A stretch of DNA of 32,452 bases. Origin: an uncultured Flavobacteriales bacterium (lineage in GTDB: Bacteria; Bacteroidota; Bacteroidia; Flavobacteriales_G; Salibacteraceae). Positions 2,208 through 26,087 of this stretch are shown piece after piece. The stretch's first letter is position 1, and the number at the start of each line of letters is the position of its first letter. The stretch lies in the NCBI GenBank assembly GCA_913057205.1, contig CAJXNO010000033.1:1-32452 (forward strand). The letters run 5' to 3'. The notes beneath the pieces were generated by a model. That model was not told the DNA's origin and made no database searches. It worked only from the letters and a program-made list of their open reading frames with translations. The position numbers and the translations under genes were made by a program.

Positions 2208-2320
2208 TATCATTTTAAAGTACACTTCAAATGATAGTGTAGAAACCCTTGTAAACCCTTGATTTTCTCAGGATATACTATTATTTTAGACATGATTCCT
2301 GATTTCCCTTAAATGATAGT
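2208..2320 (+). promoter_or_regulatory. Inverted and direct repeats upstream of the serine recombinase
   Basis: TATCATTT (2208-2215) and AAATGATA (2229-2236) form a perfect 8-base inverted repeat, with a smaller AAGT/ACTT repeat nested inside. The right arm extended by two bases, AAATGATAGT (2229-2238), recurs exactly at 2311-2320, over the first possible start codon of the recombinase. A second inverted repeat, TCAGGA (2268-2273) and TCCTGA (2297-2302), lies between them. Repeats of this kind fit a resolvase recombination site and/or an autoregulatory operator. That role is inferred from position only. Confidence 0.45.
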
Positions 2321-2939: not shown

Positions 2940-2950
2940 ATAAAAATTAT

Positions 2951-4024: not shown

Positions 4025-4052
4025 GATACTTTCAGATATCTAAATTATTAGA

Positions 4053-4080
4053 GGAGAATCCCAAATGGTTCTCCTTTTTT
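4053..4080 (+). terminator. Rho-independent terminator after the LamG gene
   Basis: GGAGAA(T)CC at 4053-4061 pairs with GGTTCTCC at 4067-4074, with one bulged T and a 5-base loop, and a run of six T follows. It ends the recombinase-LamG transcript. The T run overlaps the stop codon of the convergent integrase gene at 4079. Confidence 0.8.
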
Positions 4081-5614
4081 ATATCAATTCCCCAACTTTC
4101 ATTTCGTAAATCTCTTTGGTAATCAATCCTTCTTCAAAGAGTGATTTGAGTTGTGATAGTTTCGTTTTCAATTCAGAATCTACCGAAACCTTCTTTTCTT
4201 CGTTTTTAGGAGTTTCATTGGTGATAGAGAACATCATCTTACCAGTTTTATCTAATTCTTCATCTATCGTACTGAAATACCCTTGAAACACCTTGTCGTT
4301 TGAATGACCACTCATCGACATAATGACGTGATATGGAATATTGTTATTGATACCTTCTCTAATGAAAGTTCTTCTGATGATATGAGAGGTTAGAAACTTA
4401 TGAAGTGGTTCTCTGATATCAGTTCCTTCTTTAACCTTTCCATCAGAGGTGTAAGTTGGGTTTTGAACCCATCTATTCAATCCAACGATTCTTCCAATTT
4501 CCTTTAGATGTTTATTCATCTTTTGATTGGAGATGGGATTTCCTTTAGGTGTTCTGGGGAAGATGTAATCATATCGAGTTTTATTCTTTGAATACTTCTT
4601 CCAAATATTGAAGGTTAGTTGGTTGATTGGAACCCTCACTTGTTTTCCAATACGAGATTTCTTCATTCTGAAAACGAAGTATCCATTGGTTCGTTCTTCT
4701 CCGAATTGGTAGTTATCAATCTTCAGATTAACTAAATCACTGAAACGACATCCCAACCCACAACCAAACACCAACATATCCTTATATACCTCCCAATTGG
4801 TATAGGTTACTTCTTTTCCATTCTTTAGAGTATCAGTAAAGTATTCAGTCGTGTATTTATGGTGATTAGGTTCAGAGTAATTGAACTCTGTGAAATGATA
4901 CAACTTCAGAATCTCATCTCTTTTTAGATAAATAATCTCCTTCTCAAAGTTGGTGGTAATCTTTATTGTTTCTAACGGTGTCTCGACATAACCATTCTTG
5001 TAACACCATTTGATAAACGATTTCAAATGTTTAAACTGTTTTTGAATAGTCGAATTACCTCTTTCCTTTTTCTCTACGGAGTAATTAAAATAACCTTTCT
5101 GGAAATCATCTGTAAAATCTGAAATTGGGAAGAAACTCATCCCAAGTTCATCTTTGATATAATAAGAGAACTGATTGAATGAATTCACAACATTCCTTCG
5201 ATACCCCTGGGTGAACCTTACATCACTCAATACAGATTTCTTATACTCTTCAGATAAAATGAAGTAATCGAACTCTTTCTTAGTTTCAATAACCTTCTTA
5301 TTCTCTTCCTTTTTCAGATAGAGTTTAACTAAGGTTGTTTCAGGTATCTGACCATTCAACTCTATGTTCTGAACGATTTTCTCTATCTCAACCAACCTTT
5401 GTCTTAATTGAAGGTTTTTGAACTTGTGATTTGAATCAGAACGTTTAATCGGATTTTCTAAATCAGGGTTCCAATCACCTTTTCTTACAGAGACACCCGT
5501 TGAGATTTTAATCTTCTTTCCCTTGAAGTAATAAAAGAGTACAACTGGAATTTCATCCTGAGTTAAATAACTCGATTTTGGTTTCTGATAATTAAGTGAC
5601 GGATATAAACTCAC
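4079..5614 (-). CDS. Tyrosine recombinase (integrase) of the element, with SHOCT-like tail
   Basis: This 511-residue protein is a phage-type integrase that would recombine attachment sites in tRNA-Gln. Residues 1-110 hold an N-terminal arm-binding region, about 115-215 a SAM-like core-binding domain and about 225-455 the catalytic domain. Catalytic residues are visible: Arg290 in GCGLGCRFSDL, a Lys near 318-319, His411 and Arg414 in HIIRRTF, His437 in MSGHSND and nucleophile Tyr446 in FQGYFST. The last 30 residues (LKSLFEEGLITKEIYEMKV) look like a SHOCT motif, an unusual addition. The start is a GTG at 5614-5612, since the codon just upstream is a stop. The gene points away from the tRNA. Confidence 0.93.
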   Translation of the reverse strand: MSLYPSLNYQKPKSSYLTQDEIPVVLFYYFKGKKIKISTGVSVRKGDWNPDLENPIKRSDSNHKFKNLQLRQRLVEIEKIVQNIELNGQIPETTLVKLYLKKEENKKVIETKKEFDYFILSEEYKKSVLSDVRFTQGYRRNVVNSFNQFSYYIKDELGMSFFPISDFTDDFQKGYFNYSVEKKERGNSTIQKQFKHLKSFIKWCYKNGYVETPLETIKITTNFEKEIIYLKRDEILKLYHFTEFNYSEPNHHKYTTEYFTDTLKNGKEVTYTNWEVYKDMLVFGCGLGCRFSDLVNLKIDNYQFGEERTNGYFVFRMKKSRIGKQVRVPINQLTFNIWKKYSKNKTRYDYIFPRTPKGNPISNQKMNKHLKEIGRIVGLNRWVQNPTYTSDGKVKEGTDIREPLHKFLTSHIIRRTFIREGINNNIPYHVIMSMSGHSNDKVFQGYFSTIDEELDKTGKMMFSITNETPKNEEKKVSVDSELKTKLSQLKSLFEEGLITKEIYEMKVGELI

Positions 5615-7951: not shown

Positions 7952-8902
7952 CTAAAGTTGATTGGCCGGTATGACGGGGGCCGAATTCTTCTTGGTAAAA
8001 CGAATACCGAGTACGATCTCATGCGAACCAGTGGTTGCTGCACCGATGCGTCCAACATCCAGGTCATAGGCATAACCGATTGAGAGGTTGTTCTCAAAAG
8101 CGTAACCAGCCATGATCCCTACGGCCGATGGCAATTGGTCTGTGATGATCGGTGATCGGTAGGAAACGCCCAACCAGATCATGTCATCATAAATACCACG
8201 CACCTGAAGGTCGAACATGTCCATCGGTGTTACGTAACGCCCGAGGAAATTCGCATCGATCGCCCAGGTATCATCAAAATCATAGCGATAACCCGCATTC
8301 AGGTAATAGTGCCGTGCAAGCACGTTCTCTGTGGCCGCATAGTCATTGAAGAACTGCGCCTTCAAACCTGCAATCTGCGGCACGTAGAAGCCCACATGGA
8401 AGTTCTTCCCAGCAAAACGCAGTCCTGAACCAAAATCAAGCGACCAAAGCGACATGAAGCCATTGCTCAAAGCGATGTCATTCTGTTGCTCCAGATCAAG
8501 CTTGTTCCCATCAACAGAGAACTGCAGCATACCTGTGCTCAATGACATCGACAACTTGAGGTCATCGGTCACCTTAAAGTGGTAGGCATAGGTAGCCTGA
8601 AAGCCTGATCGACGGGTTTGTCCAACCACATCGCTGAACACTGCTCCTCCGATGCCCATGGTTTCCTTCACGATCGGACCATGTACGCTGAGGTAGTAGG
8701 TCCGCGGTGAGTCTTGAATACCGACCCACTGGTCGCGGTAGAGGGCATTGGCATGGAAGTACTGATCAGATCCGGCTGCGGTGGGATTGATCATGTACTC
8801 GTTCATGTAGAACTGCGTCCATTGCTCCAATTGCTGTGCTTTGAGGCTGATCGTGCTGATCAGCGCTACAGCTAGTATGATGATGTATTTCATAGTACGC
8901 AT
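7952..8902 (-). CDS. PorP/SprF family type IX secretion outer-membrane protein
   Basis: This 316-residue protein belongs to the PorP/SprF family of beta-barrel-like proteins that work with T9SS type B cargo, anchoring or aiding export of the giant protein encoded just upstream. Residues 1-22 are a signal peptide ending SLKAQ. The mature N-terminus QWTQFYMNEYMINPTAAG is the family signature (Q-x-Y-x-N-x-x-x-x-NPAxAG type). Alternating hydrophobic/aromatic strands follow, ending in HEIVLGIRF. Met4 (8893) is an alternative start. The gene begins 11 bases after the stop of the SprB-like gene, so the two form an operon. This mirrors the sprB-sprF pairing known in Flavobacterium johnsoniae. Family assignment is firm, the specific partner is inferred from position. 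Confidence 0.93.
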   Translation of the reverse strand: MRTMKYIIILAVALISTISLKAQQLEQWTQFYMNEYMINPTAAGSDQYFHANALYRDQWVGIQDSPRTYYLSVHGPIVKETMGIGGAVFSDVVGQTRRSGFQATYAYHFKVTDDLKLSMSLSTGMLQFSVDGNKLDLEQQNDIALSNGFMSLWSLDFGSGLRFAGKNFHVGFYVPQIAGLKAQFFNDYAATENVLARHYYLNAGYRYDFDDTWAIDANFLGRYVTPMDMFDLQVRGIYDDMIWLGVSYRSPIITDQLPSAVGIMAGYAFENNLSIGYAYDLDVGRIGAATTGSHEIVLGIRFTKKNSAPVIPANQL

Positions 8903-8913
8903 ACGTTCAAGGT

Positions 8914-11900
8914 TTATTTAAGGATCGTTACAGGTCCTGTGATGAGACGTTGAATGTTCGGATCCTTCAGATCGATCACGTAGTAGTAAGTACCCACCGG
9001 CAACGCATTGCCATTGTAAGTACCATCCCACGGTGTGGTGTATCCGGTTGGTGATTCGTAGATCAAGTTACCCCAGCGGTTGAAAATCTGTACCACTGCG
9101 TTCGGGAAGTCGCCGATGCGATCGATGGTGAACACGTCGTTCACACCGTCACCGTTTGGCGAGAAGCCGCCCACAGGATCAACTACTTCTTCTACCGTTA
9201 CCGTTACGCTATCAATTCCGAAACAGCCATCGCCATCGGTTGCACTCACGTAGTACACCGTGGTCTCCAATGGATTCGCTTCAGGGTTGAAGGCAGTAAC
9301 GCTAGTCAAGTTAGCCGCTGGGGTCCAATTAACCTCCACTCCTTCACGTGCCGTTGGCGAACCTCCAATGCTGGTGATTTCACCTGGCTCGATGTTGCGA
9401 TCCGGACCGGCATCAATGCCAGGACCCGGCGTCCAAAACACGCGTAGAGTATCGCGTGCCACACAAACATCATTGATTCCTTCCAAGACGAAGATCGATA
9501 TGTCTGTGGTCGTATTCACGTCGATGGAGATGCCTGAACCAGCGATTGTTCCGTTCTCGAACAACCAGCGGACATCGCTAGCACCTGTTTGGGTTCCTGT
9601 GATGTCTACACCTTGTGACTGTGGACAAACACTGAAGTCATCCATGGCAGTAACGCTCACATTGAACTCAACACCCACGTTGAAACTATCGGTCACCGTA
9701 CAGCCCAGTGTATCGGTTACGGTTAAGCCATATCCACCTGCAAGTACTCCATTCAGGTCTTGTGCTGTGAGTGTATCGAGGTTATCGTAATTCCACTGAT
9801 AGGTGTATGGAGCCGCGCCACCCGTAACGGTGATCTGGATGGTTCCATCACCGGTATTGTTACAAGTTGCATCTCCAAGTGAATCGAGGGTGATGATCAT
9901 TGGCTGTGGACCACCTACCGTTAGGGTAGTGATGTAGGCACAACCATTGGCGTCGGTAACGGTCAAGCCGTAATCACCTGCACAAAGGTCTGCGATGGCC
10001 GTATCACTCGCACCTGTACTCCAGCTGTAATTGTACGGCGCTGTGCCTCCGGTCATGCTCACAGAGATGCTACCATTACAATCGGATCCACAGAACACAT
10101 CGGTGATCTCCACGTTACTCGGGATGAGTTCATCGGGCTCCGTAATGGTGTAGATATCGAATGCAGCACACAAGTTCGCATCCACTACCGCAATGGTATC
10201 GCTACCCGCACATAGCGAGTCGATATCATCGGTGGTTTCGCCGGTAGACCAAAGGATACTTACCGGAGCAATACCACCACTCACCGTGGTCTCGATGCTT
10301 CCGTCGCACTCGCCGAAGCAGCTCACGTTGGTCAAGTTATCCAAGGTGATCACTGGCGCATTCAAGTTGTTCAGGATCACCGCCGTGGTGTCTTCACAAC
10401 CATTTGCATCCACCACTCGCACGTTATAGATACCTGCCAGGAGGTTGTTTGCTGTTGGAGTAGTCTGCGCTGGGATCAACGGATCACCGTTCACATCCAA
10501 CCACTGATAGCTGTATGGTCCGCCGTTTCCACCACTCGCTGAAACTGTAACAGAGCCGTTGTTCTGCTGACAGTCTGGGTTCGTGATGTTTGTTGTGGTC
10601 ACCACAATGGCCGGCGGTTCATTCACGGTAAAGTCAAGCGCTACGGAACAACTTGCCGTATCCATAATGGTCACGCTATAAAATCCTGGACAAAGCCCTG
10701 TCAGCGTTGCAGTTGTGTCACCTGTGTTCCACATGTACATGTAGGGTGGACTTCCACCTGCAATGTTGAGGATGATCTCGCCATCACATGCATCTGGACA
10801 GGTTACATCAGACACGCTGCTCGCAATCGTGAATGGCTGTGGAACGGTCAGCTCCACAGAGTCAGTCACCTGCGCTCCGTTGTTATCGGTTACCGTCAAG
10901 GCATAGACCCCAACACAGAGGCTATCGATCAAGCTCGCGGTGTCACCGGTATTCCATGCCAAGCTGTAAGGAGGGATACCTCCATTGACGATCGCTTCGA
11001 TCAATCCATCACAACCATTACCGGCGCAGCTGATCTCCGTTACATTGAAACTCAACGTAAGCGGCGTAGGCTCAGTGATGGTTACCGTATCCACGGTTGA
11101 ACATCCATTCGTATCGGTTGCCGTTACAAAGTAGGTGCCCGCGCAGAGAGAATCTGCAGTAGCCGTGTTGTCGCCATTCGACCAAGTGAAGGTCACGTTT
11201 CCGAGTGATGTGATCACGTTGGCCGTTGCTTCGCCATCGCACTCACCTGCCGCAGAAACGTTGATCGAAGTGATGTTGATCTCTGGACCATCTGTTTCAG
11301 AAACTGGATAGTTGAATGCGGCCGTACATCCATTCGCGTCGGTCACCGTTACGGAGTATCCACCTAAGCAAAGCGAGCCGATGGTATCCGTAGTGGCACC
11401 GTTGCTCCAGAGATAGGTGAATCCACCAGCACCACCAGAGAAGGTTGGTGAAACAGAACCGTCGCACAGCCCGCAAGTGGCATCAGCTATGATTACCGTA
11501 TCCTGAACGATTGCTGCTGGCTGATCGATGGTGAAGGTATCGGTTACGGTACATCCATTTGCATCGGTGATGGTCAGGAAGTAATCTCCTGCACAAAGAC
11601 CGGTGGCTTGCGATGTACCATTCCCGTTGGCCGGTACTGGGCTCCAGTTGAAGCTGTATCCGCCTGCACCGCCGCTTGGCGATGTATTGATGCTACCATC
11701 ACACGTGGCGAAGCAGCTCGCGTCTGCGATCGTTGGGTTAACATCAATAGCACTCGGCTCATCGATCACGAAGGTTTCTACGGTGTCACAACCCGCATTA
11801 TCGCTGATGGTAACCGTATAGCTATCTGCGCACAAGTTGTTCACCGTTGCCGTTGTAGCTCCGTTGCTCCAGAGGTAGGTATAAACACCAGACCCACCTG

Positions 11901-14900
11901 TAGCAGCGATCACGATGGTACCGTCGCATTGACCGTTACAAGAAGCATCGGTAACGGTAGCGTTCGGATCAATCAATGCAGGAGCAACAAGGGTTACCGT
12001 ATCTACGCTCACACAGCTTCCTCCGTTTGTCAATTCAACAGCGTAGGTACCTGCACAGAGTCCGTTCACGGTATCGGTAGTACCTACAACCAAGGAGGTT
12101 GCCAGATTGGTCCATTCTACCGTACATGGTGCTTGTGAGCAGTTGTACGTAGCGATCACGGTACCATCACAATTACCACAAGTAGGATCGATCTTAGATG
12201 CGATCACGGTATCGGCACCGTCTGCGTTGATTGGTAAGGTAAACACCTCTGTACACCCACCATTATCAGTTATGGTTACGGTATTGATACCCGCACACAG
12301 CGTGTTGTTGGTATCTGCTGTTCCTCCGTTGCTCCATACATAAGTGAAGACTGGACCGTTACCGCCGCTTGGGTTGGCTGTAGCAGAACCATCGCACACG
12401 GTACAAGAGGAGCTCGTGATGCCTGTAAAGTTGTTCTGGATGCCTGCTGGATCAGTGATGATCACACAAGCCGTATCCGTACAACCATTGACATCTGTTA
12501 TGGTAACGCAGTATTGTCCTGCTGCTAGTCCAGTTTCGGTCACGGTTGTATTACCTGATGGCCACTGATAGGTATAACCAGGTGTACCACCTGTTCCTGC
12601 AATGGTAGCTCCACCGTCTGCCTGTCCGGCACACGAAGGATCGATGATGTTGGAGAACGTTCCTCCAACAGGTGTCGGCTCATTGATGTCAATGGTATCG
12701 CTGGCCACACAGCCTCCGTTATCGGTTACTTGAATGATATAGGTTCCTGCAGGCTGATTGGTTAAGGTATCCGCCGCAATGGTTCCATTCCAAAGGAAGC
12801 TGTAAGGGGCAGTACCTCCTGTTGCGATCGCCGTTACCGATCCGTCGGTTCCTCCGTTACAACTAACATCATTGATCAACACGGCTGTTACCGCGATGCT
12901 GTTCGCAGGTGCACCGATGCTCACGCATGCGGTGTCTGTACATCCATTGTTGTCGGTAACCGTTACACAGTAGTTGCCCACCGCAAGGTTATTCGCTGTT
13001 GCCGTAGTAGCTCCATTTGACCACAGGAAGCTGTAGCCTGGGGTACCACCAGAACCAGCCACGGTTGCAGAACCGTCGCCGCTACCAGGACAGGTCACAT
13101 CAATTGAGCTGGTGATGCTTGCCACCACTGGGGTTGGCTCTGTTATGGTGATGGTATCGAAGCTAACGCAACCTGAGTCATTGGTCAATTCTACGTAGTA
13201 GTCACCTGCGCTCAAGCCTGTAATGGTATCTGTTGTGCCTTGAAGCGTAGAAGTGTTCAGATCGAACCACGCTACCGTACATGGTGCTACGTTGCAGTTG
13301 TAAACAGCGGCACCGATACCATCGGAACCTCCATTGCAGCTCACGTTCTGAAGGGTTGAAGCAAACACTGTATCTGCACCAAGGCTGCCGATGTTCACAT
13401 CGAAGGTCTCGATGCAACCGTTTCCATCGGTTACAGTAACGGTATTCAAGCCTGCACACAAACCAGTACCTGTAGCTGCAGTAGACCCACCTGGCCATGC
13501 GTAATTCAACGGTGAAGTACCTCCGCTGATGTTGACCGTTGCAGACCCGTTGCATGTTCCACATGATGAAACATTGACGTTGCTGAAGGTGGCCGACATA
13601 CCAACAGGGTCGTTCAAGTTAAATTGTGCCTCTCCTGTACATCCATTACCATCCGTTACGGTGACGCTGTAGGTTCCGGCGTTCAGTCCGTTGCGAACAG
13701 GGTTGGTAGAGTTATCATCCCAAAGGAAGGTATACGGCCCACCGTCCCCTCCAGTACCCGATGCGGTCAAACTACCGTCATTTCCACCCGGACAAGAAGG
13801 CAAGGTAGCAATGATGGTTGCTGCAACAGGTGCTGGATCAACCACCGTTACACACGCTGTATCATCGCAAACACCGCCATCCGTTACAGTAACGCAATAG
13901 CTACCAGCTGGCAATTGTACAGTAGCAGTAGTATCTCCGTTCGGCCATTGGAAACTGTAGTTTCCATTACCACCGATTCCACTTGCTACAATAGTTGCAC
14001 TATCACCATTACAGGCGGGCTGTGTAGTGATGCTTACCGCAGCTGCCAAGCCTGTTGCTGGTTCTGTGACCACCGTATCGATCTCTACGGTACATCCATT
14101 AGCGTCCGTTATGGTCACCGAATATGAACCCGCCGGAATACTGGACAAGCAGCCGATCGCTGTTGAACCGTTAGACCATGAATAGGTGTATCCGGGGGTT
14201 CCACCGCTTGGTGTTACACAAATCTCTCCATCACTACCTCCGAAGCAATTCACATCGCTCACCGTATCGATCACTACTACCAAAGGCGAAGGCTGATCGA
14301 TGGTAACACCAGCACTGTCAACGCACGTCGTGGTAACGTCAGTAACGGTAACCGTGTAGCTACCTGGTGCGAGGTTGTTCACCACAGCAGTAGTAGCTCC
14401 TGTACTCCATAGGTAGGTATAGTTTCCTGAGCCCCCAGACAAGACACCGACCTCTGCGGAACCATCGGTTCCATTAAAGCACGTCACGTCTGAAGAGTCG
14501 ATCATTGCTACGATGAAGTTCCCTGGAGGATCTAAGACGTAGCAAGCTGAGTCCAAGCATCCTGCTGCATCCGTAGCCGTTACACAGTAGGTGCCCGCGG
14601 TAAGTCCTGTGATGCTAACACCGGTTCCACCGTTACTCCAAACAAAGGTGTAACCCGCAGTGCCACCTGTTACGCTCACAGATATTTCACCGTCGTTACC
14701 GGCTCCGCCACATGAGATCGGCACTTCCGTGAAGGCAAACGTCAAGCTGTCTGGCTGATCGATAAAGAGGTCGGCACTATCGATGCATCCGTTGGCATCG
14801 GTGATGGTAACGGTATAGGTTCCTGAAAGTACATTGCTTATGGTATCGGTAGTTGCACCATTATTCCAAGCATAGGTAAACGGAGCTGTACCGCCTACTT

Positions 14901-17900
14901 GGGTTGCAAATGCTGCACCTGAAGGCTCATCAAAACATGCTGCATCGGTAATCAGCACAGCAGATGCTGTATGCCCTACTGCTGCGTTCACATTTACGGT
15001 AGCAGAATCGGAGCAGCCATTGCCGTCCGTTACGGTTACCGTGTAGGCGCCAGCAGCAACGTTGAAGATCGTATCATTCGTAGATCCAGTTGACCACAAG
15101 TAGGTAAATGGACTTGTACCACCAGATGCTGAAACGCTCGCCTGACCTGTAGCGGATGTACAGCCTGCATCTGAAGAATCCATCGACAGAAGGATCTGAG
15201 CTGGCTCCGTAAGGATGATCGTGTCAAAGCGGTTACACCCGAAGCCAGTAGTCAAACGGCCTAAATAAGTTCCAGCTCCCACACCTGAAAGGGTATCTCC
15301 TGTTCCGATGAGGTTTGTAGTGTCCAATCCATCGTACCAGCGGAAGTCTTCACACGTAAAACAGAAGTAACTCGCGATGATCTGTCCGTCTGTTGAACCA
15401 AAACAAGATGGATTGGTCGTGCTCACCGTAAAGTTCGGAGCAAAAAGATCACTTACGTTGGTAGAGTTCGTTGCGCTACATCCATTGGCATCAGTAACCG
15501 TTACCGCATAAGGTCCGGAGCAAAGGCTGCTCTGCTGGTTACTGGTGCTGTTGGTATTTACGATAGTACTGGTACTCCAAGCATATTGGTAAGGAGCTGT
15601 ACCTCCGCTAACGGTAGCGGTAGCTGTACCCGTACATACAAAGCAAAGGCTGTTGGTAGATGTTGTTGCCACAGAGATAGAGGCGCCATTTCCAAGGGTA
15701 GTTGAAGCGGTCGCGGTACATCCATTCGCGTCTGTAACCGTTACGGTGTTCAATCCCGCTGAAAGGTTATTGGCTGTATCGGATGTTGCACCACCGGTCC
15801 AGAGATAGGTATAAGGTCCAGTACCATTTGCGGCAACCACTACCGCCTGTCCGTCTGAACCACCGAAGCACGTTGGAGGTGTGCTGGAGGTAATGGATGC
15901 ACTCACTGCTGTTGCAGGCTGTGTGATGGTAACTTGCGCCGTATCGGTACAGCCATCTGCTGCAGTTACCGTTACCGTATAGCTACCAACAGGCAGGTTA
16001 GAAGCCGTATCGGTTGTATTTCCGTTGCTCCACGCATAAGTAAATGGAGCAATGCCTCCGGTTGTTTGCACCGTAGCGGTTCCATCTGAACCTCCGAAGC
16101 AGTTCACGTTGTTTACAACCACACCTGTTGCCACCAAGGTACATGCGCAGGTATCGATAACCGTCACTTCTGCTGTATCCGTGCAGGCATCGTTATCGGT
16201 TACTGTAACGGTATAGGTTCCGGCAGCAAGTCCGGTGATGGTCTGCGTAAGCTGTCCGCCATCCCAAGAGAAGTTGAATGGCAATGTTCCTCCGATCATG
16301 TTCACAGAGGCAACACCTGTGCTGTTGCCGCAAGTATCTCCCGCAAGCATAACTCCATTAGCGGTAAACCCAGCTGGGGCCACCAAGGTCGACTGTGCCG
16401 TGGCTGTACAGTTGTTATCATCTGTGATGGTCACGGTATAGGTTCCGGCAGCAAGTCCGGTGATCGTTGCAGTGGTGGCCCCGGTGTTCCAGAGATAACT
16501 GTAAGGAGGTGTTCCTCCTGTACCTTCTACCTCCAACTCACCGTCATTATTGTTACACGATGGCTGGATCGAATCGATCATGGTAGCCACCAACGCAGGT
16601 GGGTCTGTCAAGGTTACTTGCTCTACATCCTGACAACCGGTATTGTTATCCGTCAAGGTCACCGTATAGGTACCTGCAGAGAGACCGAACAAGATGTTCA
16701 AGGTAGAACCTGTATTCCATAGGTAGGATGTGCTCGTGGGAACAGAAGCATTGGAGTCCGTAACTGCGATGGAACCGCTCATGCCACCTGCACACAACGG
16801 ATCTTGAACCACAGAAACGCTGACCTGAATACCAATTCCTTGTCCTACGGTAGCACTATCGATGGCTTCACAGCCATTGTTATCGGTAATAGTAACCACA
16901 TATGTTCCCGGTGCTAGACCTCCGATGGAATCCGTTGTTCCACTGTTGCTCCACAAGTACGTGTAAGGCGTGGCCCCTCCAGCAGGAGAAACCAGTGCAC
17001 TTCCAGAATTCGAACCTGCACAAGCCGCATCATTCGCACTCATTGTCAATGTAATCGTGACACCTGAGTTGATTACCCTGCTATCTGTAGTGGTACAGCC
17101 GTTAACGTCCGTAACGGTAATGGTATAGGTTCCAGCAGCGAGGCCAGAAACGTTTTGAGTGGTAGCACCATTACTCCATAGGAATGTATATGGTGCCGTT
17201 CCTCCAGCAATGGTTGAGTTGATAGAGCCATCTGCGGCTCCGGAGCAAGTTTCATCCGTTTTATTCGTGAAAACATTGAGCGGACTAGGCTCCGTGATGG
17301 TAGCAGAAGCGGTGTCTGTACATCCATTTGCATCGGTAACGGTAATGGTATAGGTTCCAGCAGCGAGGTTGGAATTGGTCAGGTTGGTGCCACCGTTGCT
17401 CCATAAGTAGGTATAAGGACTAGCCCCGCCTGTAGCTGCATTTGCAGTGATTGAACCTGTGGAATTTCCATTACAATCTACATTGGTCACACTATTGATG
17501 CTAATACTAACTCCGGTTGCTGGTTCGGTGATGGTAGCTTGTGCGGTATCGGTACATCCGTTGATATCCGTAGCCGTAACGGTGTAGGTACCTGCCACCA
17601 GGTTATTGATGGTAAGCGTAGTTCCACCATTGCTCCATAGATAGGTGTAACCAGGTGTTCCACCTGTAGCAGCATTGGCGGTGATGGTACCATCATTTCC
17701 ACCGATACAGCTCACGTTGGTCTGTGAGGCAATGCTGATATCAACTGGTGTTGGCTCATTTAGGATCCGTACATCGGTTGATGTACAACCATTGTTGTCA
17801 GTTACGGTAACCGTATACGTACCTGCACCAAGGTTGGTAATGGTAGCTGTAGTGGCTGTGGTAGACCACAAAAAAGTATAGCCCGGTGTACCCCCTGAAC

Positions 17901-20805
17901 CTAATGCGGTGAGCTCACCATCAGCTGCACCATTACAACTGATCGGCACATCTATATTGGTTGTCGCTACAACTGGCGTAGGCTCCGTCAAGGTGATGGT
18001 CAATGCTTCTGTACAACCAGCGGCGTCAGTGGCAGTGACCGTATAGGTGCCCGCAGCAATGTTATTCAACAAGGCTCCGGTTGCACCGGTATTCCAAGCA
18101 TAAGTGAAAGGCGCTCCGTTCGAACCGCTTGCGCTGGCAAGGATTGACCCATTGGCATCCCCATTACACAATGGTTGGGTCAAAGTGGTATCAATTATAA
18201 TTGGAGCAGGCTCTTGAATGTCAAACTGCAAGGTATCCTCGCAGCTGCGTGGGTCAGAAATGGTCACCGTGTAGCTTCCAGCCGTCAAGTTTGTGGCTGA
18301 GCTTCCAGATCCAACGCTCGACCACGTGTAGGTGAATGCTTGGCTGGAAGGGATGAAAGCAACATAGTCGTTGGTTAGGGTAAAGTTTGCATTATTCCTA
18401 GATGGCACTGCTAGACCGCTGGAGCCTCCGGCACCTTCAATGCCTTGAACTCCAGTAAGTGCAGTTACATCCTCAGAGAAGATCTGTATGATGTTACTTG
18501 ATTCATACAACACGATCTGGAATGTGAATGTATTCACTGCATTGTTATAGCGTGGAACATCAATAAAGTTGATGACATGCGCCTCCTGAGCGCCGTTGCC
18601 AATCTCATAATGCTCGATGGTTCCTCCACCAGAGAAATCCAGGTCATCCCAGATACCTATCCAATTATTGGGATAGCCCGCTGCTGGTATAGCGGTTTGA
18701 TTAAACGAATTCGATCCTGGAGGATTGGCAACATCAAAGGTGATGAAGCCATTAGCATGCACCCTAAATTGGGTGTACGAGGTACCAAAGAACTCAAATG
18801 GGAAACCGATGTTAATCGCAACAGATAAACCCTCGTCACCACCTGCGAATCCACTTCCGTAGGATGTAAAGGCAGCTTGGTCTAGAACCGTAGCACCAGC
18901 ATAATTGAAAGGATATGGCTCGTAGATGTTTTCGGTTTGATCGATGATGTAGCTCGTAGTAGAGTCTGATGCGGCGTAGCCACCGTGTGCAGACAAGAAG
19001 GCTGCACCATCATTACCTCCATTACAGGTAACCGAATCGGTTGAATCTACCGCACTGAAAATGGCAGGTCCGTCGGGAATAACAATATCTTGGATCACCT
19101 GACAGCCATTGGTTGCCTCCGTAATCGTCACCGTATGCAGTCCACCGCAAAGCGCATCGTTGGTCTGTGTGGTAGCTCCGTCATCCCATAAGTAGGTCTT
19201 CGGGTTTCCGCCGAAAAGGGTCAACGCCCGTGCCCTACCGTTGCATTCATCATCACAAGCAGCGAGGATACTGTTGAAACCGGCTGAAAAGAAATTCCCC
19301 CCTGGTTGAATGGTTACCGTAACCGAATCGAGGGAGTTATCGAAAGAGTCAATAGCGTAGACATTGTAAGACAATGGCTCAAGGCCTGTGAACACGGGTG
19401 TACTTTGGGTGATCGTATCTAGTGTTCCTGAAAAGAATACGATGTAATAGCCGAACGGCCCCACACCTCCACTGATGTTCACGGTGATCTGTCCGTCATC
19501 CAATCCTGCACATGACTCATCCACCACCTGCACATTATCGATCTCAAAAGGACCTGCAGATTCCTGTACGATGACTACCACGCGCTGCGCAGAACGACCC
19601 GAAACCAAACATCCGTCGTCAACTGCCGAAATACTGTATACGTAGGTTCCTACATCCGCACCAGTAGGCGTCCAATCAATTTCTAATGTGGCTGTATTCG
19701 ACGCTGTTGTGATGTTCGTTGTAGCCCCATTCAACTGACTTGCCGCGTTGGTTGTCAAGGTTACCGCTTCACCTGCATCACCGGTGAATACCAGCGACCA
19801 GCTTGCTGCACTTCCCGTGTCAATGATGATGGTATCGTTACCACTAGAATTTGAAAGGTTGGCCGTAGCGCTGAAGCTGCCAGCTGCTGCTGGACCTGAG
19901 TTCGAACAGGATGGATCTACTTCAAACTGAAAATCACGGAAGGAGGTAGAGATCAAATTACCGGTAGCTGGGTCATATTCGTTCACTTCAACCACGATCT
20001 GGTAAACACCAGAGGCAGGGGCTGTGAAAGTAAGTATACCTGTACTCTGGTCGATGGTGATTCCGTTTCCAGTTGGGTCCAAAGCAGAAAAACCCGTTGC
20101 GTAAGAATAAACCGTTGGAGTAGTTGCACCTCGTTCAGCCGCACGTAAGGAGAACACCAAGCTATCGCCGTCAGCTTCACTGATCTGGGGATCGAATCCA
20201 ACAGTTGTTCCAGCACAAATGAAGGGTCGTTCTACCGCTCCAAAGACGGGACTGTTGTTCAAGGTATCCACACTTAAGTAAAGGTCCAACGCAAGACGCA
20301 CCCTGTCTTGCGAGCTGGTAACATTCACCAAGTTGGTCGCATCAAAACGATTCGAATAGAATAGGGAGTACTCAATAAATGCAGATGCACCCATCAAAGC
20401 CACCTCATCGGTCACATCAAGACTTGCCTCATAGATCACGTGCTCCTCACCATCCAAGCTACCGCCTGCCGCACAATAGGGCATCGAGTCGGCACAAACC
20501 ACGTCAACCTCGGTTGGACCGGAGATCCGATAGAGAAAGTCCCCGGTTATAGTGGATGGAGAACCATTCCTGAAAAAGAAGATGGAATCAGGAAAAATCG
20601 CGGTCGACGGGCAATCATCGTACGCGTTCAACCGAAGGATGATACTATCCTGAGTCGCATTCAAGGTTGCCGACAGGTCTCCACCGGAGTAGGCTCCAAC
20701 TGACGGTAGTGTCTGAGCAGAAGATGCGATTGGTCCGAAAAACGCAATAGCGCATACGAAGACCACAAGAAGTTGTCTTGAAATTAGGTGCATAGTAAGG
20801 TTCAT
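8914..20805 (-). CDS. Giant SprB-repeat cell-surface protein with type B gliding-motility C-terminal domain
   Basis: This protein of about 3,963 residues is probably exported by T9SS to the cell surface as an adhesin or gliding-related filament. The signal peptide is MHLISRQLLVVFVCAIAFF..SSAQ. A non-repeat N-terminal module (to about residue 310) resembles that of the 911-residue protein at 23352-26087. An Ig-like stretch precedes about 40 SprB-type repeats of about 75 residues (about 419-3719). Typical repeat features are CNGGxDG, PYTYLWSNG, AGTYTVTVTD and NGC. The protein ends with a type B sorting domain (GGFSPNGDGVNDVF, IFNRWGNLIYE, LPVGTYYYVIDL). The frame stays open to an ATG at 20862, but a consensus promoter lies at 20814-20821, so I place the start at 20805 (or 20793). 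It heads an operon with the PorP-like gene. Confidence 0.93.
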   Translation of the reverse strand: MNLTMHLISRQLLVVFVCAIAFFGPIASSAQTLPSVGAYSGGDLSATLNATQDSIILRLNAYDDCPSTAIFPDSIFFFRNGSPSTITGDFLYRISGPTEVDVVCADSMPYCAAGGSLDGEEHVIYEASLDVTDEVALMGASAFIEYSLFYSNRFDATNLVNVTSSQDRVRLALDLYLSVDTLNNSPVFGAVERPFICAGTTVGFDPQISEADGDSLVFSLRAAERGATTPTVYSYATGFSALDPTGNGITIDQSTGILTFTAPASGVYQIVVEVNEYDPATGNLISTSFRDFQFEVDPSCSNSGPAAAGSFSATANLSNSSGNDTIIIDTGSAASWSLVFTGDAGEAVTLTTNAASQLNGATTNITTASNTATLEIDWTPTGADVGTYVYSISAVDDGCLVSGRSAQRVVVIVQESAGPFEIDNVQVVDESCAGLDDGQITVNISGGVGPFGYYIVFFSGTLDTITQSTPVFTGLEPLSYNVYAIDSFDNSLDSVTVTIQPGGNFFSAGFNSILAACDDECNGRARALTLFGGNPKTYLWDDGATTQTNDALCGGLHTVTITEATNGCQVIQDIVIPDGPAIFSAVDSTDSVTCNGGNDGAAFLSAHGGYAASDSTTSYIIDQTENIYEPYPFNYAGATVLDQAAFTSYGSGFAGGDEGLSVAINIGFPFEFFGTSYTQFRVHANGFITFDVANPPGSNSFNQTAIPAAGYPNNWIGIWDDLDFSGGGTIEHYEIGNGAQEAHVINFIDVPRYNNAVNTFTFQIVLYESSNIIQIFSEDVTALTGVQGIEGAGGSSGLAVPSRNNANFTLTNDYVAFIPSSQAFTYTWSSVGSGSSATNLTAGSYTVTISDPRSCEDTLQFDIQEPAPIIIDTTLTQPLCNGDANGSILASASGSNGAPFTYAWNTGATGALLNNIAAGTYTVTATDAAGCTEALTITLTEPTPVVATTNIDVPISCNGAADGELTALGSGGTPGYTFLWSTTATTATITNLGAGTYTVTVTDNNGCTSTDVRILNEPTPVDISIASQTNVSCIGGNDGTITANAATGGTPGYTYLWSNGGTTLTINNLVAGTYTVTATDINGCTDTAQATITEPATGVSISINSVTNVDCNGNSTGSITANAATGGASPYTYLWSNGGTNLTNSNLAAGTYTITVTDANGCTDTASATITEPSPLNVFTNKTDETCSGAADGSINSTIAGGTAPYTFLWSNGATTQNVSGLAAGTYTITVTDVNGCTTTDSRVINSGVTITLTMSANDAACAGSNSGSALVSPAGGATPYTYLWSNSGTTDSIGGLAPGTYVVTITDNNGCEAIDSATVGQGIGIQVSVSVVQDPLCAGGMSGSIAVTDSNASVPTSTSYLWNTGSTLNILFGLSAGTYTVTLTDNNTGCQDVEQVTLTDPPALVATMIDSIQPSCNNNDGELEVEGTGGTPPYSYLWNTGATTATITGLAAGTYTVTITDDNNCTATAQSTLVAPAGFTANGVMLAGDTCGNSTGVASVNMIGGTLPFNFSWDGGQLTQTITGLAAGTYTVTVTDNDACTDTAEVTVIDTCACTLVATGVVVNNVNCFGGSDGTATVQTTGGIAPFTYAWSNGNTTDTASNLPVGSYTVTVTAADGCTDTAQVTITQPATAVSASITSSTPPTCFGGSDGQAVVVAANGTGPYTYLWTGGATSDTANNLSAGLNTVTVTDANGCTATASTTLGNGASISVATTSTNSLCFVCTGTATATVSGGTAPYQYAWSTSTIVNTNSTSNQQSSLCSGPYAVTVTDANGCSATNSTNVSDLFAPNFTVSTTNPSCFGSTDGQIIASYFCFTCEDFRWYDGLDTTNLIGTGDTLSGVGAGTYLGRLTTGFGCNRFDTIILTEPAQILLSMDSSDAGCTSATGQASVSASGGTSPFTYLWSTGSTNDTIFNVAAGAYTVTVTDGNGCSDSATVNVNAAVGHTASAVLITDAACFDEPSGAAFATQVGGTAPFTYAWNNGATTDTISNVLSGTYTVTITDANGCIDSADLFIDQPDSLTFAFTEVPISCGGAGNDGEISVSVTGGTAGYTFVWSNGGTGVSITGLTAGTYCVTATDAAGCLDSACYVLDPPGNFIVAMIDSSDVTCFNGTDGSAEVGVLSGGSGNYTYLWSTGATTAVVNNLAPGSYTVTVTDVTTTCVDSAGVTIDQPSPLVVVIDTVSDVNCFGGSDGEICVTPSGGTPGYTYSWSNGSTAIGCLSSIPAGSYSVTITDANGCTVEIDTVVTEPATGLAAAVSITTQPACNGDSATIVASGIGGNGNYSFQWPNGDTTATVQLPAGSYCVTVTDGGVCDDTACVTVVDPAPVAATIIATLPSCPGGNDGSLTASGTGGDGGPYTFLWDDNSTNPVRNGLNAGTYSVTVTDGNGCTGEAQFNLNDPVGMSATFSNVNVSSCGTCNGSATVNISGGTSPLNYAWPGGSTAATGTGLCAGLNTVTVTDGNGCIETFDVNIGSLGADTVFASTLQNVSCNGGSDGIGAAVYNCNVAPCTVAWFDLNTSTLQGTTDTITGLSAGDYYVELTNDSGCVSFDTITITEPTPVVASITSSIDVTCPGSGDGSATVAGSGGTPGYSFLWSNGATTATANNLAVGNYCVTVTDNNGCTDTACVSIGAPANSIAVTAVLINDVSCNGGTDGSVTAIATGGTAPYSFLWNGTIAADTLTNQPAGTYIIQVTDNGGCVASDTIDINEPTPVGGTFSNIIDPSCAGQADGGATIAGTGGTPGYTYQWPSGNTTVTETGLAAGQYCVTITDVNGCTDTACVIITDPAGIQNNFTGITSSSCTVCDGSATANPSGGNGPVFTYVWSNGGTADTNNTLCAGINTVTITDNGGCTEVFTLPINADGADTVIASKIDPTCGNCDGTVIATYNCSQAPCTVEWTNLATSLVVGTTDTVNGLCAGTYAVELTNGGSCVSVDTVTLVAPALIDPNATVTDASCNGQCDGTIVIAATGGSGVYTYLWSNGATTATVNNLCADSYTVTISDNAGCDTVETFVIDEPSAIDVNPTIADASCFATCDGSINTSPSGGAGGYSFNWSPVPANGNGTSQATGLCAGDYFLTITDANGCTVTDTFTIDQPAAIVQDTVIIADATCGLCDGSVSPTFSGGAGGFTYLWSNGATTDTIGSLCLGGYSVTVTDANGCTAAFNYPVSETDGPEINITSINVSAAGECDGEATANVITSLGNVTFTWSNGDNTATADSLCAGTYFVTATDTNGCSTVDTVTITEPTPLTLSFNVTEISCAGNGCDGLIEAIVNGGIPPYSLAWNTGDTASLIDSLCVGVYALTVTDNNGAQVTDSVELTVPQPFTIASSVSDVTCPDACDGEIILNIAGGSPPYMYMWNTGDTTATLTGLCPGFYSVTIMDTASCSVALDFTVNEPPAIVVTTTNITNPDCQQNNGSVTVSASGGNGGPYSYQWLDVNGDPLIPAQTTPTANNLLAGIYNVRVVDANGCEDTTAVILNNLNAPVITLDNLTNVSCFGECDGSIETTVSGGIAPVSILWSTGETTDDIDSLCAGSDTIAVVDANLCAAFDIYTITEPDELIPSNVEITDVFCGSDCNGSISVSMTGGTAPYNYSWSTGASDTAIADLCAGDYGLTVTDANGCAYITTLTVGGPQPMIITLDSLGDATCNNTGDGTIQITVTGGAAPYTYQWNYDNLDTLTAQDLNGVLAGGYGLTVTDTLGCTVTDSFNVGVEFNVSVTAMDDFSVCPQSQGVDITGTQTGASDVRWLFENGTIAGSGISIDVNTTTDISIFVLEGINDVCVARDTLRVFWTPGPGIDAGPDRNIEPGEITSIGGSPTAREGVEVNWTPAANLTSVTAFNPEANPLETTVYYVSATDGDGCFGIDSVTVTVEEVVDPVGGFSPNGDGVNDVFTIDRIGDFPNAVVQIFNRWGNLIYESPTGYTTPWDGTYNGNALPVGTYYYVIDLKDPNIQRLITGPVTILK
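9650..19550 (-). repeat. Array of about 40 SprB-type repeats within the giant gene
   Basis: I counted 40 units of about 225 bases (75 residues). Each generally has a Cys near its start, a YxWSNG strand, an AGxYTVTVTD strand and an NGC near its end. Neighbouring units share long identical DNA tracts. For example, 16208-16239 equals 16433-16464 (32 bases) and 17111-17143 equals 17336-17368 (33 bases), each 225 bases apart. Units of a cysteine-rich subtype cluster toward the C-terminus. Exact unit number may shift by one or two depending on how the edge units are treated. Confidence 0.9.
18350..18960 (-). other. Domain of about 200 residues inserted inside one SprB repeat
   Basis: The third repeat begins normally (CNGGNDG) but breaks off after about 30 residues. 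It resumes at FTYTWSSVGSGSSATNL with its second half intact. Between the halves lies a segment with INIGFPFEFFGTSYTQFRV, HANGFITFD and NWIGIWDDLDFSGGG. It resembles nidogen-like beta-sandwich domains seen in secreted Bacteroidota proteins. The family name is tentative. Confidence 0.6.
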
Positions 20806-20813
20806 TATCAACT

Positions 20814-20846
20814 CAAATTTACGAGGAAATCGGGCTGAATCCACAA
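20814..20846 (-). promoter_or_regulatory. Promoter of the giant SprB-like gene
   Basis: The minus strand carries TAAATTTG (complement of 20814-20821), an exact TAnnTTTG match. A TTG (complement of 20844-20846) lies 22 bases upstream, within the reported 17-23 base spacing for Bacteroidota. Transcription should start near 20809, just before the ATG at 20805 and about 16 bases before the ATG at 20793. An ATG at 20862 would lie upstream of the transcript. Confidence 0.7.
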
Positions 20847-20902
20847 TTCCCAATGCTTCCACGCAGATTCAGTACGAAAGGTTGGGTAGAAGGTTTGAAA
20901 AA

Positions 20903-22752: not shown

Positions 22753-23352
22753 CTATGATTTCGCGAGGATTCGGCGCTGGGCTTCCATGACGTATTTGCC
22801 CAGGATATCGAACTCCAGGTTCACCCGATCGCCTTGTTGAAGCGCGTGAAAATTGGTGTGCTCGTAGGTATATGGGATGATGGAAACAGAGCAGTGTCGT
22901 TCACTGGCCTGAACCACGGTCAGACTGACCCCGTTGATGGTAATGCTCCCCTTCTCCACTACAATAGCTTGGTCTGAAGGCTCAAAGCGAAAGAAGAAGT
23001 TCCAAGAACCGTCCACTTCCTCTACCCGTTCCATAACAGCTGTCTTGTCTACATGTCCCTGTACGATGTGCCCGTCGAAACGACCATTGGCAGACATACA
23101 GCGCTCCAAGTTGACCGGATCGCCTTCCTTAAGGTCACCGATGTTACTGCGTTTTAAGGTTTCATCAATAGCGGTCACTTTGTAGCGATCACCTTGGATC
23201 TCCACCACCGTTAGACACACCCCATTGTGCGCCACGCTTTGGTCAATTTGTAACTCTGAGGTAAAGTCGCAAGTGAGCCAGATGTGTCTGTTGCTTCCTT
23301 CCTGCTCGATCTGTTCTACGCGTCCTACGGATTCAATGATTCCTGTAAACAT
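22753..23352 (-). CDS. ribE: Riboflavin synthase, alpha subunit
   Basis: This 199-residue enzyme makes riboflavin and a pyrimidinedione from two molecules of 6,7-dimethyl-8-ribityllumazine. The protein shows the expected internal duplication: N-terminal MFTGIIESVGRV with NGVCLTVV near residue 45, and a second barrel with GHIVQGHVD near 93-101 and INGVSLTVV near 138-146. Length and start match the family. Its ATG overlaps the stop codon of the upstream 911-residue surface protein by one base (TGATG), so translation is probably coupled. Many genomes call this gene ribE, others ribC. The enzyme itself looks complete. Confidence 0.97.
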   Translation of the reverse strand: MFTGIIESVGRVEQIEQEGSNRHIWLTCDFTSELQIDQSVAHNGVCLTVVEIQGDRYKVTAIDETLKRSNIGDLKEGDPVNLERCMSANGRFDGHIVQGHVDKTAVMERVEEVDGSWNFFFRFEPSDQAIVVEKGSITINGVSLTVVQASERHCSVSIIPYTYEHTNFHALQQGDRVNLEFDILGKYVMEAQRRILAKS

Positions 23353-26087
23353 CAGGGGGCTAATTGTTGATCTTCTTGTTCGTTCAACAAATGTAGGCTT
23401 CCTTTGATCTCACGCGGTTCAATTCCTGTCAATCGGATCTCATTGATAATGCATACGTAATAGTACACCCCAGACGGCAATGGTTTACCGGTACGCTGAT
23501 CTGTACCATCCCAGTTCACATCCGGGTCGATCGTTTGAAAGACCCGTGTTCCCCATCGATTGTAGATCGACAGGTTGATGCTTTCTACAAACTTGTACGG
23601 GAACGGTGTGAAGAAATCATTCCTTCCGTCATCCCCTGGTGTAAATACGTTCGGCAACTCATACAACGGGCAATTATCAACGCAAAGCGGCTCGTCCATA
23701 TCGCTCTCGTTACCAAAACTATCGATTGCCGTGATCGCATAACACCCCGCTATGGAACCGTTCGCGTTGTGCACATACTCCGTTACATTCGGGTCATCGA
23801 TCACCTCTAGCACCTGAACTGGGTCTCCTAAAAACGGGGCATAATAAATGTTGTAGCTCACCACATCATCGGTATCCTCGCAATTCTCATTTGGATTAGA
23901 CCATGTGATCACCGTTTGCTCTAAGTCGCAATCGCCTTCAATGATGCGATCTGGCGGAGCACAAGGAGCTTCCTTATCAATTGGTAGACCCGTGTGGATC
24001 TGCGATAGGTTCACCAGGGTATCGTTCAAGTCCAACGCTGAGTAAGCGCCGATGCTCTGAATTAGGTACCTGAATCGCACCAAGTTAGCCAAACCTTCAT
24101 CCACATAACTGGTCGTACTTACGGTATCCAGAATGATCACCTGGTTGGATGACTCCTCATCATTGAGGAAGCGGTAAACAACGTATTCGTGGTTGGTCCA
24201 CGGCACGTTCAAATCCCAACTTAATGACAAGGTGTTATCAGAGGGCACCGAGCTCAAGAAAATCGATGAAGCCGAACGAGAGGCACCAACACTTTCTTCT
24301 TCAGAACCACTCAGCATGGTAATGCGATAGAAGAATTGCTCGCGAAGGGTGTTGATGCCAACATCAGTGTAGCTGGTATCCAACGAAAACGGATCATTGG
24401 AGGCGTCACTGGTGTAGACCACTTCAAACACCCCTTCCCGATCTGTAGAACGAGACAGTTGGTAGCGATAAGGCGGTCCATAAACCGCGGTATTCAATTC
24501 TATGGGTTCATACCATGCGATATCAATCGAACCATTCAAACTATCTGTGTTGGTAACACTGACTTGATTCAAGATCGGAACATCTCGAATGAGCAACCCA
24601 CATGCTTCTTCAGAAGGATAGCTTTCAGAGCCATCTCGGAATCGGGTCACGATCATATAACAATAGCGCTGACCATGAATCAAGCCCTCCCCGTCATCAT
24701 CATCAACAAAGCGGGTGTTGCTTCGCCCTTCCGTACTTCCAATGTATTCATAGCCCAGTGCTGCAGGCACACCGGTAAGGCACTCAGGAGCAACATACCC
24801 CAAGCTATCGTTGAAACGATAAATATCGTATCCCGTAGCCTCAGCGCAAATCGCTTGGGTCCAATCGATCATCAAAGAAGTGCCTTTTGGTTCAATGTTG
24901 GTGATGCGCACCGCTGGGGAAACCACCTCTATGGCCATGGTCTTGAAATCAACGAGATCAGCGTTCATGCCGCTCAACTCCTTGGCCTTGAAATACATCC
25001 AGTAGGGCGACTTACGTACCTGAGTGCAATTGGTATTCCATCGAAAGGTCATGGAAACCGGTGAAAGTCCGGTGACGCTATCGCCCTCAACAATACTACC
25101 GCCGTTACCAGGATCAAGCGGGAAGCCCACTGCAGACAGGCGTAAGTTACCCCCTTCGGGATCGGTTGCCGTGATGCGCTCTTGAAGGGTTTGTCCAGCT
25201 GTAACACAAACCTCCTCATTCAGCGTAATGAACGGAGGATCGTTTGGCGGACAGTTTCCGATATCGATCTGCATGTCGCGCATGATCGACCCCACCTTGA
25301 AAACCGCGCCGCTGTTGACGTTGGTTCGGTATTCTTCAATAAGGATGGCAACATTGTATTCTCCGGCCAGCTGGGGTGCAACCCATGTCAAGGTGCCTGT
25401 TTGCGGATCGATGCTCAACTGGTTGTTCGGTCCAGGGCTCACTTCATCTGGAAAGAGGTAATTGGTAATGTTAGCGCCATCAAAAGAGCGACTGGCAACG
25501 ATGGAATAGACCAAGCTATCGCCTTCTGGATCTACCGCGCCCGGATTGTGATAAAACGGCACGCCAACACAACCGTTATCGATTGGTGGGTTCTGAAGCA
25601 CAGGTGCTCGATTGCCCCCTGTAGCGATGTCGATGGTCAAGAAACTTTCGATGTAGAACGGGACATTGTCGCTGTTCTCAATATTCACCACGCCGCCGTT
25701 GCGCATAGGGTCTTCCATGCTGAGGCGATAAGTGCCTGCTCCTGGAAATTCATGGGTGGTGGTATAGACATTATACCTGGTGTTCGGAGCGATCTTCACG
25801 CCAATACCGACCCCTGGATCGCACCCCTGATTCAAAGGACCATTCACCCGATCGACCACCTCGCTGGTGCCATCGCCAAAGAACAGCTCCAATTCACAGC
25901 GGTCAGCGGCATCGCTTGGTCCACCGGTCTTGGTGTAGGTGATGATCGAAATCTCATACAAGAAGGGGTTGGAGTTAACTCGTTTATAAATGATCTCTCC
26001 TGCGCGGTTATGGGTTGCCCATGATGCGGTATAGACCAGCACAGACACCAGCAAAAGCAGACCATATTTTAAACCGAGTTTCCTCAT
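23352..26087 (-). CDS. Secreted protein with FN3-like segments and T9SS type B C-terminal domain
   Basis: This 911-residue protein is probably exported to the cell surface by T9SS. A signal peptide (1-24, ending SWA) is followed by THNRAGEIIYKRV, a recurrent N-terminus in Bacteroidota gliding-associated proteins. A cadherin-like/Ig stretch (about 165-290) contains DPEGDSLVYSI and LSIDPQTGTLTWVAP. About four fibronectin-III-like segments follow (about 395-810). Residues 820-905 are a type B domain: LPNVFTPGDDGRNDFF, IYNRWGTRVFQ and GVYYYVCIINE. The N-terminal module has a counterpart in the giant SprB-like protein. It overlaps ribE by one base at its stop. Function is unknown beyond surface location. 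Confidence 0.9.
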   Translation of the reverse strand: MRKLGLKYGLLLLVSVLVYTASWATHNRAGEIIYKRVNSNPFLYEISIITYTKTGGPSDAADRCELELFFGDGTSEVVDRVNGPLNQGCDPGVGIGVKIAPNTRYNVYTTTHEFPGAGTYRLSMEDPMRNGGVVNIENSDNVPFYIESFLTIDIATGGNRAPVLQNPPIDNGCVGVPFYHNPGAVDPEGDSLVYSIVASRSFDGANITNYLFPDEVSPGPNNQLSIDPQTGTLTWVAPQLAGEYNVAILIEEYRTNVNSGAVFKVGSIMRDMQIDIGNCPPNDPPFITLNEEVCVTAGQTLQERITATDPEGGNLRLSAVGFPLDPGNGGSIVEGDSVTGLSPVSMTFRWNTNCTQVRKSPYWMYFKAKELSGMNADLVDFKTMAIEVVSPAVRITNIEPKGTSLMIDWTQAICAEATGYDIYRFNDSLGYVAPECLTGVPAALGYEYIGSTEGRSNTRFVDDDDGEGLIHGQRYCYMIVTRFRDGSESYPSEEACGLLIRDVPILNQVSVTNTDSLNGSIDIAWYEPIELNTAVYGPPYRYQLSRSTDREGVFEVVYTSDASNDPFSLDTSYTDVGINTLREQFFYRITMLSGSEEESVGASRSASSIFLSSVPSDNTLSLSWDLNVPWTNHEYVVYRFLNDEESSNQVIILDTVSTTSYVDEGLANLVRFRYLIQSIGAYSALDLNDTLVNLSQIHTGLPIDKEAPCAPPDRIIEGDCDLEQTVITWSNPNENCEDTDDVVSYNIYYAPFLGDPVQVLEVIDDPNVTEYVHNANGSIAGCYAITAIDSFGNESDMDEPLCVDNCPLYELPNVFTPGDDGRNDFFTPFPYKFVESINLSIYNRWGTRVFQTIDPDVNWDGTDQRTGKPLPSGVYYYVCIINEIRLTGIEPREIKGSLHLLNEQEDQQLAP

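Follow-up and report, generated by a model that had tools for sequence, protein, structure and literature searches.

The window, that is the whole stretch of 32,452 nucleotides that was analysed, carries on its minus strand a long open reading frame for a SprB-repeat adhesin and, directly downstream of it, the gene of a PorP/SprF-family outer-membrane partner. The features used below are as follows.

7952..8902, minus strand: PorP/SprF-family outer-membrane partner gene, directly downstream of the adhesin (family profiles)
8914..20862, minus strand: SprB-repeat T9SS type B adhesin reading frame, 3,982 aa counted from GTG (Pfam SprB, CHU_C, TIGR04131)
8956..9168, minus strand: CHU_C / T9SS type B sorting domain, aa 3899-3969 (Pfam CHU_C, TIGR04131)
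9169..9666, minus strand: two terminal Ig-like domains between array and sorting domain (limits set by eye)
9667..19563, minus strand: array of 40 SprB repeats, R1-R40, aa 434-3732 (split by hand, alignment)
9667..12684, minus strand: C-terminal block R28-R40, cysteine pattern conserved in 8 species (ortholog comparison)
9916..10371, minus strand: R38-R39, four-cysteine repeats (alignment)
10624..12456, minus strand: R29-R36, eight consecutive repeats, all with the C2/C3 pair (alignment)
10852..11304, minus strand: R34-R35 putative staple break, R34 without C1 and R35 without C4 (all 8 orthologs)
13390..13614, minus strand: R24, four-cysteine repeat, C2 at 2437 and C3 at 2469 (alignment)
15457..15696, minus strand: R15, four-cysteine repeat, C2 at 1743 and C3 at 1781 (alignment)
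19078..19308, minus strand: R2, four-cysteine repeat, C2 at 540 and C3 at 572 (alignment)

The true start of the adhesin is likely to be Met20 at position 20805 rather than the GTG. The order of its parts is signal peptide, N-terminal domain, 40 SprB repeats, two terminal Ig-like domains and CHU_C sorting domain. The match to Pfam SprB (PF13573) has E=2.5e-262 and 846.6 bits against a curated cut-off of 28, spread over 29 stretches, while the sorting domain is recognised by CHU_C (E=7.8e-23) and TIGR04131 (1e-17), which marks the protein as a T9SS type B substrate. The SprB repeat family and its fold are already known; a phmmer search with the whole adhesin against PDB gave nothing useful. The third repeat (R3, aa 596-881, 18220-19077) is split by an additional domain, about 200 aa long, and the same split is seen in several orthologs. 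The source genome is a nearly complete 2.83-Mb draft in 68 contigs with about 100 SprB-repeat matches. Elsewhere in the window a second T9SS type B protein of 911 aa with 17 cysteines in its open frame is encoded at 23352-26087, and a resolvase, a LamG-type T9SS protein and a phage-type integrase stand together at 2313-5614, which may be a mobile stretch.

Repeats of the window protein were split by hand and aligned, and a profile of 76 columns was built. Set 1 contained 1,425 repeats, drawn from the window and from 60 stretches of its own genome and relatives, of which 1,213 full-length ones (strict) were tabulated; the held-out set was taken from 80 named loci and, after removal of repeats already seen, comprised 1,140. 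Cysteines of the profile are almost confined to columns 18 (C1), 22 (C2), 54 (C3) and 68 (C4), with rare additions at 59/73 and 32/37. About 97% of repeats have C1 and about 96% have C4, so that these two form the constant pair and C2 and C3 the optional one.

The first-pass annotation had described a second cysteine pair that is either complete or missing in each repeat of the array, and the alignment bore this out: 13 repeats have both residues (R2, R15, R24, R29-R36, R38 and R39), 27 have neither and none has one. In the profile-based table of the window, ordered as both, C2 only, C3 only and neither, the counts are 13/0/0/26, with a total of 39, one repeat being gapped in column 22 or 54; the Fisher value (p = 1.2e-10), like those given below, is only indicative and overstates independence, since repeats are related to each other by duplication. 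The same table reads 285/0/0/928 for the 1,213 repeats of set 1, window included, and 28/3/1/1108 for the 1,140 held-out ones. Two of the held-out repeats with C2 alone (L201 and L212) and the one with C3 alone (L175) look genuine; in the remaining C2-only case (L147) the unit is non-canonical. Once all units had been aligned, both columns tabulated and other Bacteroidota brought into the comparison, the coupling was thus exact both in the window and in its relatives, and almost so in the phylum as a whole, with a pair frequency of about 23% near the lineage of the window and 2-3% elsewhere. The reported clustering toward the C-terminus was found as well, 11 of the 13 four-cysteine repeats lying within the last 17. 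The position of the extra cysteine just before Asp/Asn-Gly proved correct as a general rule but not for R15, where in CFVCTG it precedes Thr-Gly.

To the joint gain and loss of C2 and C3 the same annotation had given a structural meaning, an optional second disulfide within the repeat, and on this point several lines of evidence converge. Direct coupling analysis (DCA) of 2,006 pairs of adjacent repeats placed C2-C3 at ranks 1-2 of 10,731 couplings. The two columns fall on the register of strands B and E (22+54 = 27+49), and in a contact graph derived from DCA with all cysteine columns excluded the path between them is bounded by 13 A. A bond between C2 and C3 of one repeat is a well supported prediction because this pair gives the strongest covariation of all. 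At the site of R31 the orthologs have either both cysteines (the window, G009, G003 and G015) or neither (G001, G004, G005 and G010), that is, the pair switches as a whole. That the all-or-none pattern reflects descent only, with four-cysteine repeats forming one duplicated subfamily, is scarcely credible: in a tree of the repeats they do group together (about 100-111 parsimony changes versus about 257-267 after shuffling), and R14-16, R23-25 and R28-30 seem to be one block that was copied, but the changes along the tree are many and separate and have left hardly any one-cysteine intermediates, and the objection is answered because R31 switches as a whole pair and the coupling holds in set 1 and in the held-out set, the 59/73 pair of R28, which is present in seven species, being likewise lost whole in one (G004).

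A different picture emerged for the constant pair. The annotation had implied that C1 and C4 form a first disulfide inside each repeat, and this part had to be given up, as counts, covariation and topology all place the bond between consecutive repeats. C1 and C4 of the same repeat were never lost together in 2,353 repeats of both sets (1145/33/35/0 in set 1 and 1065/40/35/0 in the held-out set, that is 68 and 75 single losses and no double one). At junctions, counted as C1(i) with C4(i+1), C1(i) only, C4(i+1) only and neither, the numbers are 1025/2/8/14 for set 1 (p=1.8e-24) and 940/3/4/10 for the held-out set (p=1.7e-18), so that C1 of one repeat and C4 of the next are together or absent together, as a disulfide-stapled chain would have them. 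The double losses come from about 12 separate proteins over both sets, if the eight R34/R35 orthologs are taken as one event. Among the 12 junctions with C4(i+1) and without C1(i), ten have a linker cysteine before strand A and two have C1 shifted by one residue in the alignment; among the five of the opposite kind, three go back to a single duplicated unit that has a local CYGC, and in two a cysteine stands 1-2 residues away from the C4 column. These explanations of exceptions are post hoc, and the held-out set behaved alike. Examples of the former are L123 (10888-13635) and L110, where repeats without C1 have a linker cysteine before strand A as an apparent substitute partner of C4. In L138 (6041-12700) a unit whose C1 loop contains CYGC has been duplicated, and the repeat that follows it is without C4; a local disulfide may have freed the neighbour there.

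Covariation agrees with the junction counts. The coupling C1(i)-C4(i+1) has rank 3 in the joint analysis and ranks 4 and 3 in each set alone, and C1-C4 within one repeat has rank 1,430-1,601 of 10,731. Couplings between non-cysteine columns, 19(i)-5(i+1), 16(i)-2(i+1) and 15-1, which link the AB loop of one repeat (i) with the beginning of the next (i+1), persist when only pairs with all C1/C4 held constant are considered. In the contact graph without cysteine columns the path length is 45 A for C1(i)-C4(i) and 17 A for C1(i)-C4(i+1). An AlphaFold2 (AF2) model of R28-R30 (pLDDT 96.5, pTM 0.83) yields strands that match those from the couplings, with C1 located on the AB loop and C4 on the FG loop; in this predicted Ig-like fold the two cysteines of a repeat occupy opposite poles.

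If C1(i) bonds with C4(i+1), C4 is dispensable in the first repeat of a chain and C1 in the last domain. First repeats with a single cysteine have C1 only in 14 cases of 14, single-cysteine last repeats have C4 only in 17 of 18, and all 49 first repeats that do have C4 possess at least one cysteine in the 110 aa upstream of C1. Against bonding between neighbours, 5 of 69 array ends have C1 and no cysteine in the next 110 aa. Under bonding between neighbours the window protein would have 40 staples and no orphan half, terminal Ig-like domains included, and these two domains would close the chain (C1 3667 with C4 3800, and C1 3746 with C4 3880). With optional pairs counted, this scheme accounts for 124 of the 130 cysteines that follow the signal peptide; the remaining six belong to the N-terminal domain.

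The alternative with both disulfides inside the repeat, a constant C1-C4 and an optional C2-C3, owes its appeal to the fact that nearly all repeats have both constant cysteines, which therefore look like a pair at casual inspection. It is very improbable in view of the single losses without a double one, the low DCA rank and the location of the two residues at opposite poles with a contact path of about 45 A, and it would leave four cysteines of the window protein (451, 3254, 3279 and 3880) unpaired; the intra-repeat C1-C4 bond was rejected on co-loss counts, DCA and topology. Rejected as well was the reverse connection, C4(i) with C1(i+1), which had no double losses in set 1 and whose sites are more than 90 A apart by contact path. 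Five double losses of this kind in the held-out set would fit blocks of two repeats.

Cysteines outside the four main columns also tend to come in twos. The window protein has a 59/73 pair in R19, R22, R26 and R28, which continues the register of strands F and G, a 32/37 pair in R25 and R30, CFTC in R16 and a further pair, 2215/2238, in R21. The linker between R12 and R13 contains CAC (16141-16149, aa 1572-1574), which fits neither the staples nor the optional pairs; most orthologs have it too, in the form D[ST]CxC (CSC, CTC, CAC, CGC).

Based on these data one can assume that the array is very probably a disulfide-stapled chain of Ig-like domains with optional internal locks. A staple would connect C1, in the AB loop at the far pole of repeat i, with C4, in the FG loop at the near pole of repeat i+1; the first repeat would require C1 alone and the last domain C4 alone, and a linker cysteine just before strand A could stand in for C1 of the previous repeat. 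The internal lock would be a bond of C2, at the start of strand B, with C3, in the E-F turn of the same repeat, gained or lost as a unit, and rarer locks may be formed by columns 59/73 across the F-G hairpin and by columns 32/37. The window protein would thus have its 40 staples and one break at R34/R35, conserved in orthologs. From the observed co-occurrence, covariation and conservation and from the fold we infer that the cysteines are oxidised to disulfides, and presumably they serve to make a long surface filament stable against mechanical stress or proteolysis.

Pairing of the cysteines for metal binding, or their presence as thiols at contact sites with no disulfides at all, is improbable, though somewhat less so than the intra-repeat arrangement. 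It would agree with the fact that no homologs of the known Dsb oxidases VKOR and DsbB were found in the nearly complete source genome, despite its many cysteine-bearing SprB-repeat surface proteins (VKOR was found in 2 of 60 relatives), and covariation as such indicates contact rather than oxidation. However, each site has only two cysteines, and no conserved residue was seen that could act as a third or fourth ligand; export carries the protein to the cell surface, and Flavobacterium johnsoniae does form disulfides in its SprF-GldK pair (PMC12635249).

Along the putative stapled chain the C-terminal block is conserved. In each position of R28-R40 the cysteine pattern is identical among eight species from two genera, the exceptions being two whole-pair switches (C2/C3 of R31 and 59/73 of R28), and the number of plain two-cysteine repeats in the middle of the array varies among orthologs. 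Inside the block all of R29-R36 have the C2/C3 pair, R30 has the 32/37 pair too, R34 is without C1 and R35 without C4. Since the latter two absences are found in all 8 orthologs, they would make one fixed break of the chain near the membrane end, where a hinge is plausible. The AF2 model of R33-R36 (pLDDT 95.2, pTM 0.74), with slightly lower pLDDT near the R34/R35 junction, is weakly consistent with such a hinge.

The first-pass annotation had also read the C-terminal clustering as graded stiffness. A stiffness gradient formed by four-cysteine repeats toward the membrane end of the filament is unlikely, even if it survives better than the other alternatives. Clustering of this kind is present in all 8 orthologs and in L107, L117, L119 and L120, but it is absent from many arrays (L109, L121 and L199 among them): in L109, L118 and L121 the pair extends over almost the whole array, in L098 it returns periodically, and in L185 the trend is reversed (p = 0.036). 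Moreover, staples would run along the whole array.

Comparison with known systems places the adhesin among SprB-type proteins in the first instance. With PF13573 and SprB of F. johnsoniae it shares a strong profile match, the T9SS type B sorting domain and the adjoining PorP/SprF partner gene; the Pfam model itself, unlike the unit described here, has 37 positions, which is part of a unit of about 76 aa, and its match to the best repeat ends well before C4. The gliding SprF of F. johnsoniae has a C-tail Cys-X-Cys and is linked to GldK by a twin-cysteine disulfide (PMC12635249). This link cannot apply to the neighbouring SprF-family protein (7952-8902), because it has no cysteine, and the C-tail motif is absent from all seven full-length PorP/SprF-family members of the genome. 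The partner expected of a mobile gliding SprB was thus not found, and the adhesin may be other than a gliding one. The closest solved relative is GhpA, the grappling hook protein A of Aureispira (cryo-EM structures 9flp, 9fls, 9flu and 9flw), detected by fold with Foldseek (E=2e-7) and by profile (E=3.6e-19). It is similar in having tandem Ig-like domains with cysteines at C1-like and C4-like places of the aligned stretch, and differs in having only about 20% identity. The matches to GhpA fell in Ig-like repeats only.

Ig-domain arrays of vertebrates (NCAM, Dscam, titin I-band) have a similar fold, but their canonical disulfide is intra-domain and connects strands B and F, whereas the constant bond of SprB repeats would lie between domains. 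In pilins of Gram-positive bacteria isopeptide cross-links, mostly intra-domain or between subunits, strengthen surface fibres of tandem Ig domains. Both these fibres and the SprB array would be covalently cross-linked, yet by different chemistry, and the likeness is an analogy only.

In the literature searched, mostly without subscription papers and the GhpA study among these, no earlier description of the staple or of the C2/C3 pair was found, and the deposited GhpA structures could already show such bonds. The pairing rule offers a simple check for annotation and truncation of SprB arrays, for instance for cutting constructs so that no half-staple is left, and the proposed architecture, if true, yields predictions that bear directly on structural and single-molecule studies. 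In that case dozens of cysteines in every molecule would have to be oxidised by these organisms with neither VKOR nor DsbB. SprB-type filaments, which are among the longest bacterial proteins, bear load in gliding and adhesion. It is fairly likely that SprB-type adhesins across Bacteroidota are covalent chains of Ig-like domains with a strict rule for start, middle and end, optional locks and fixed breaks as hinges, and disulfides from domain to domain would, in this case, explain how such chains can be extended and resistant to proteases.
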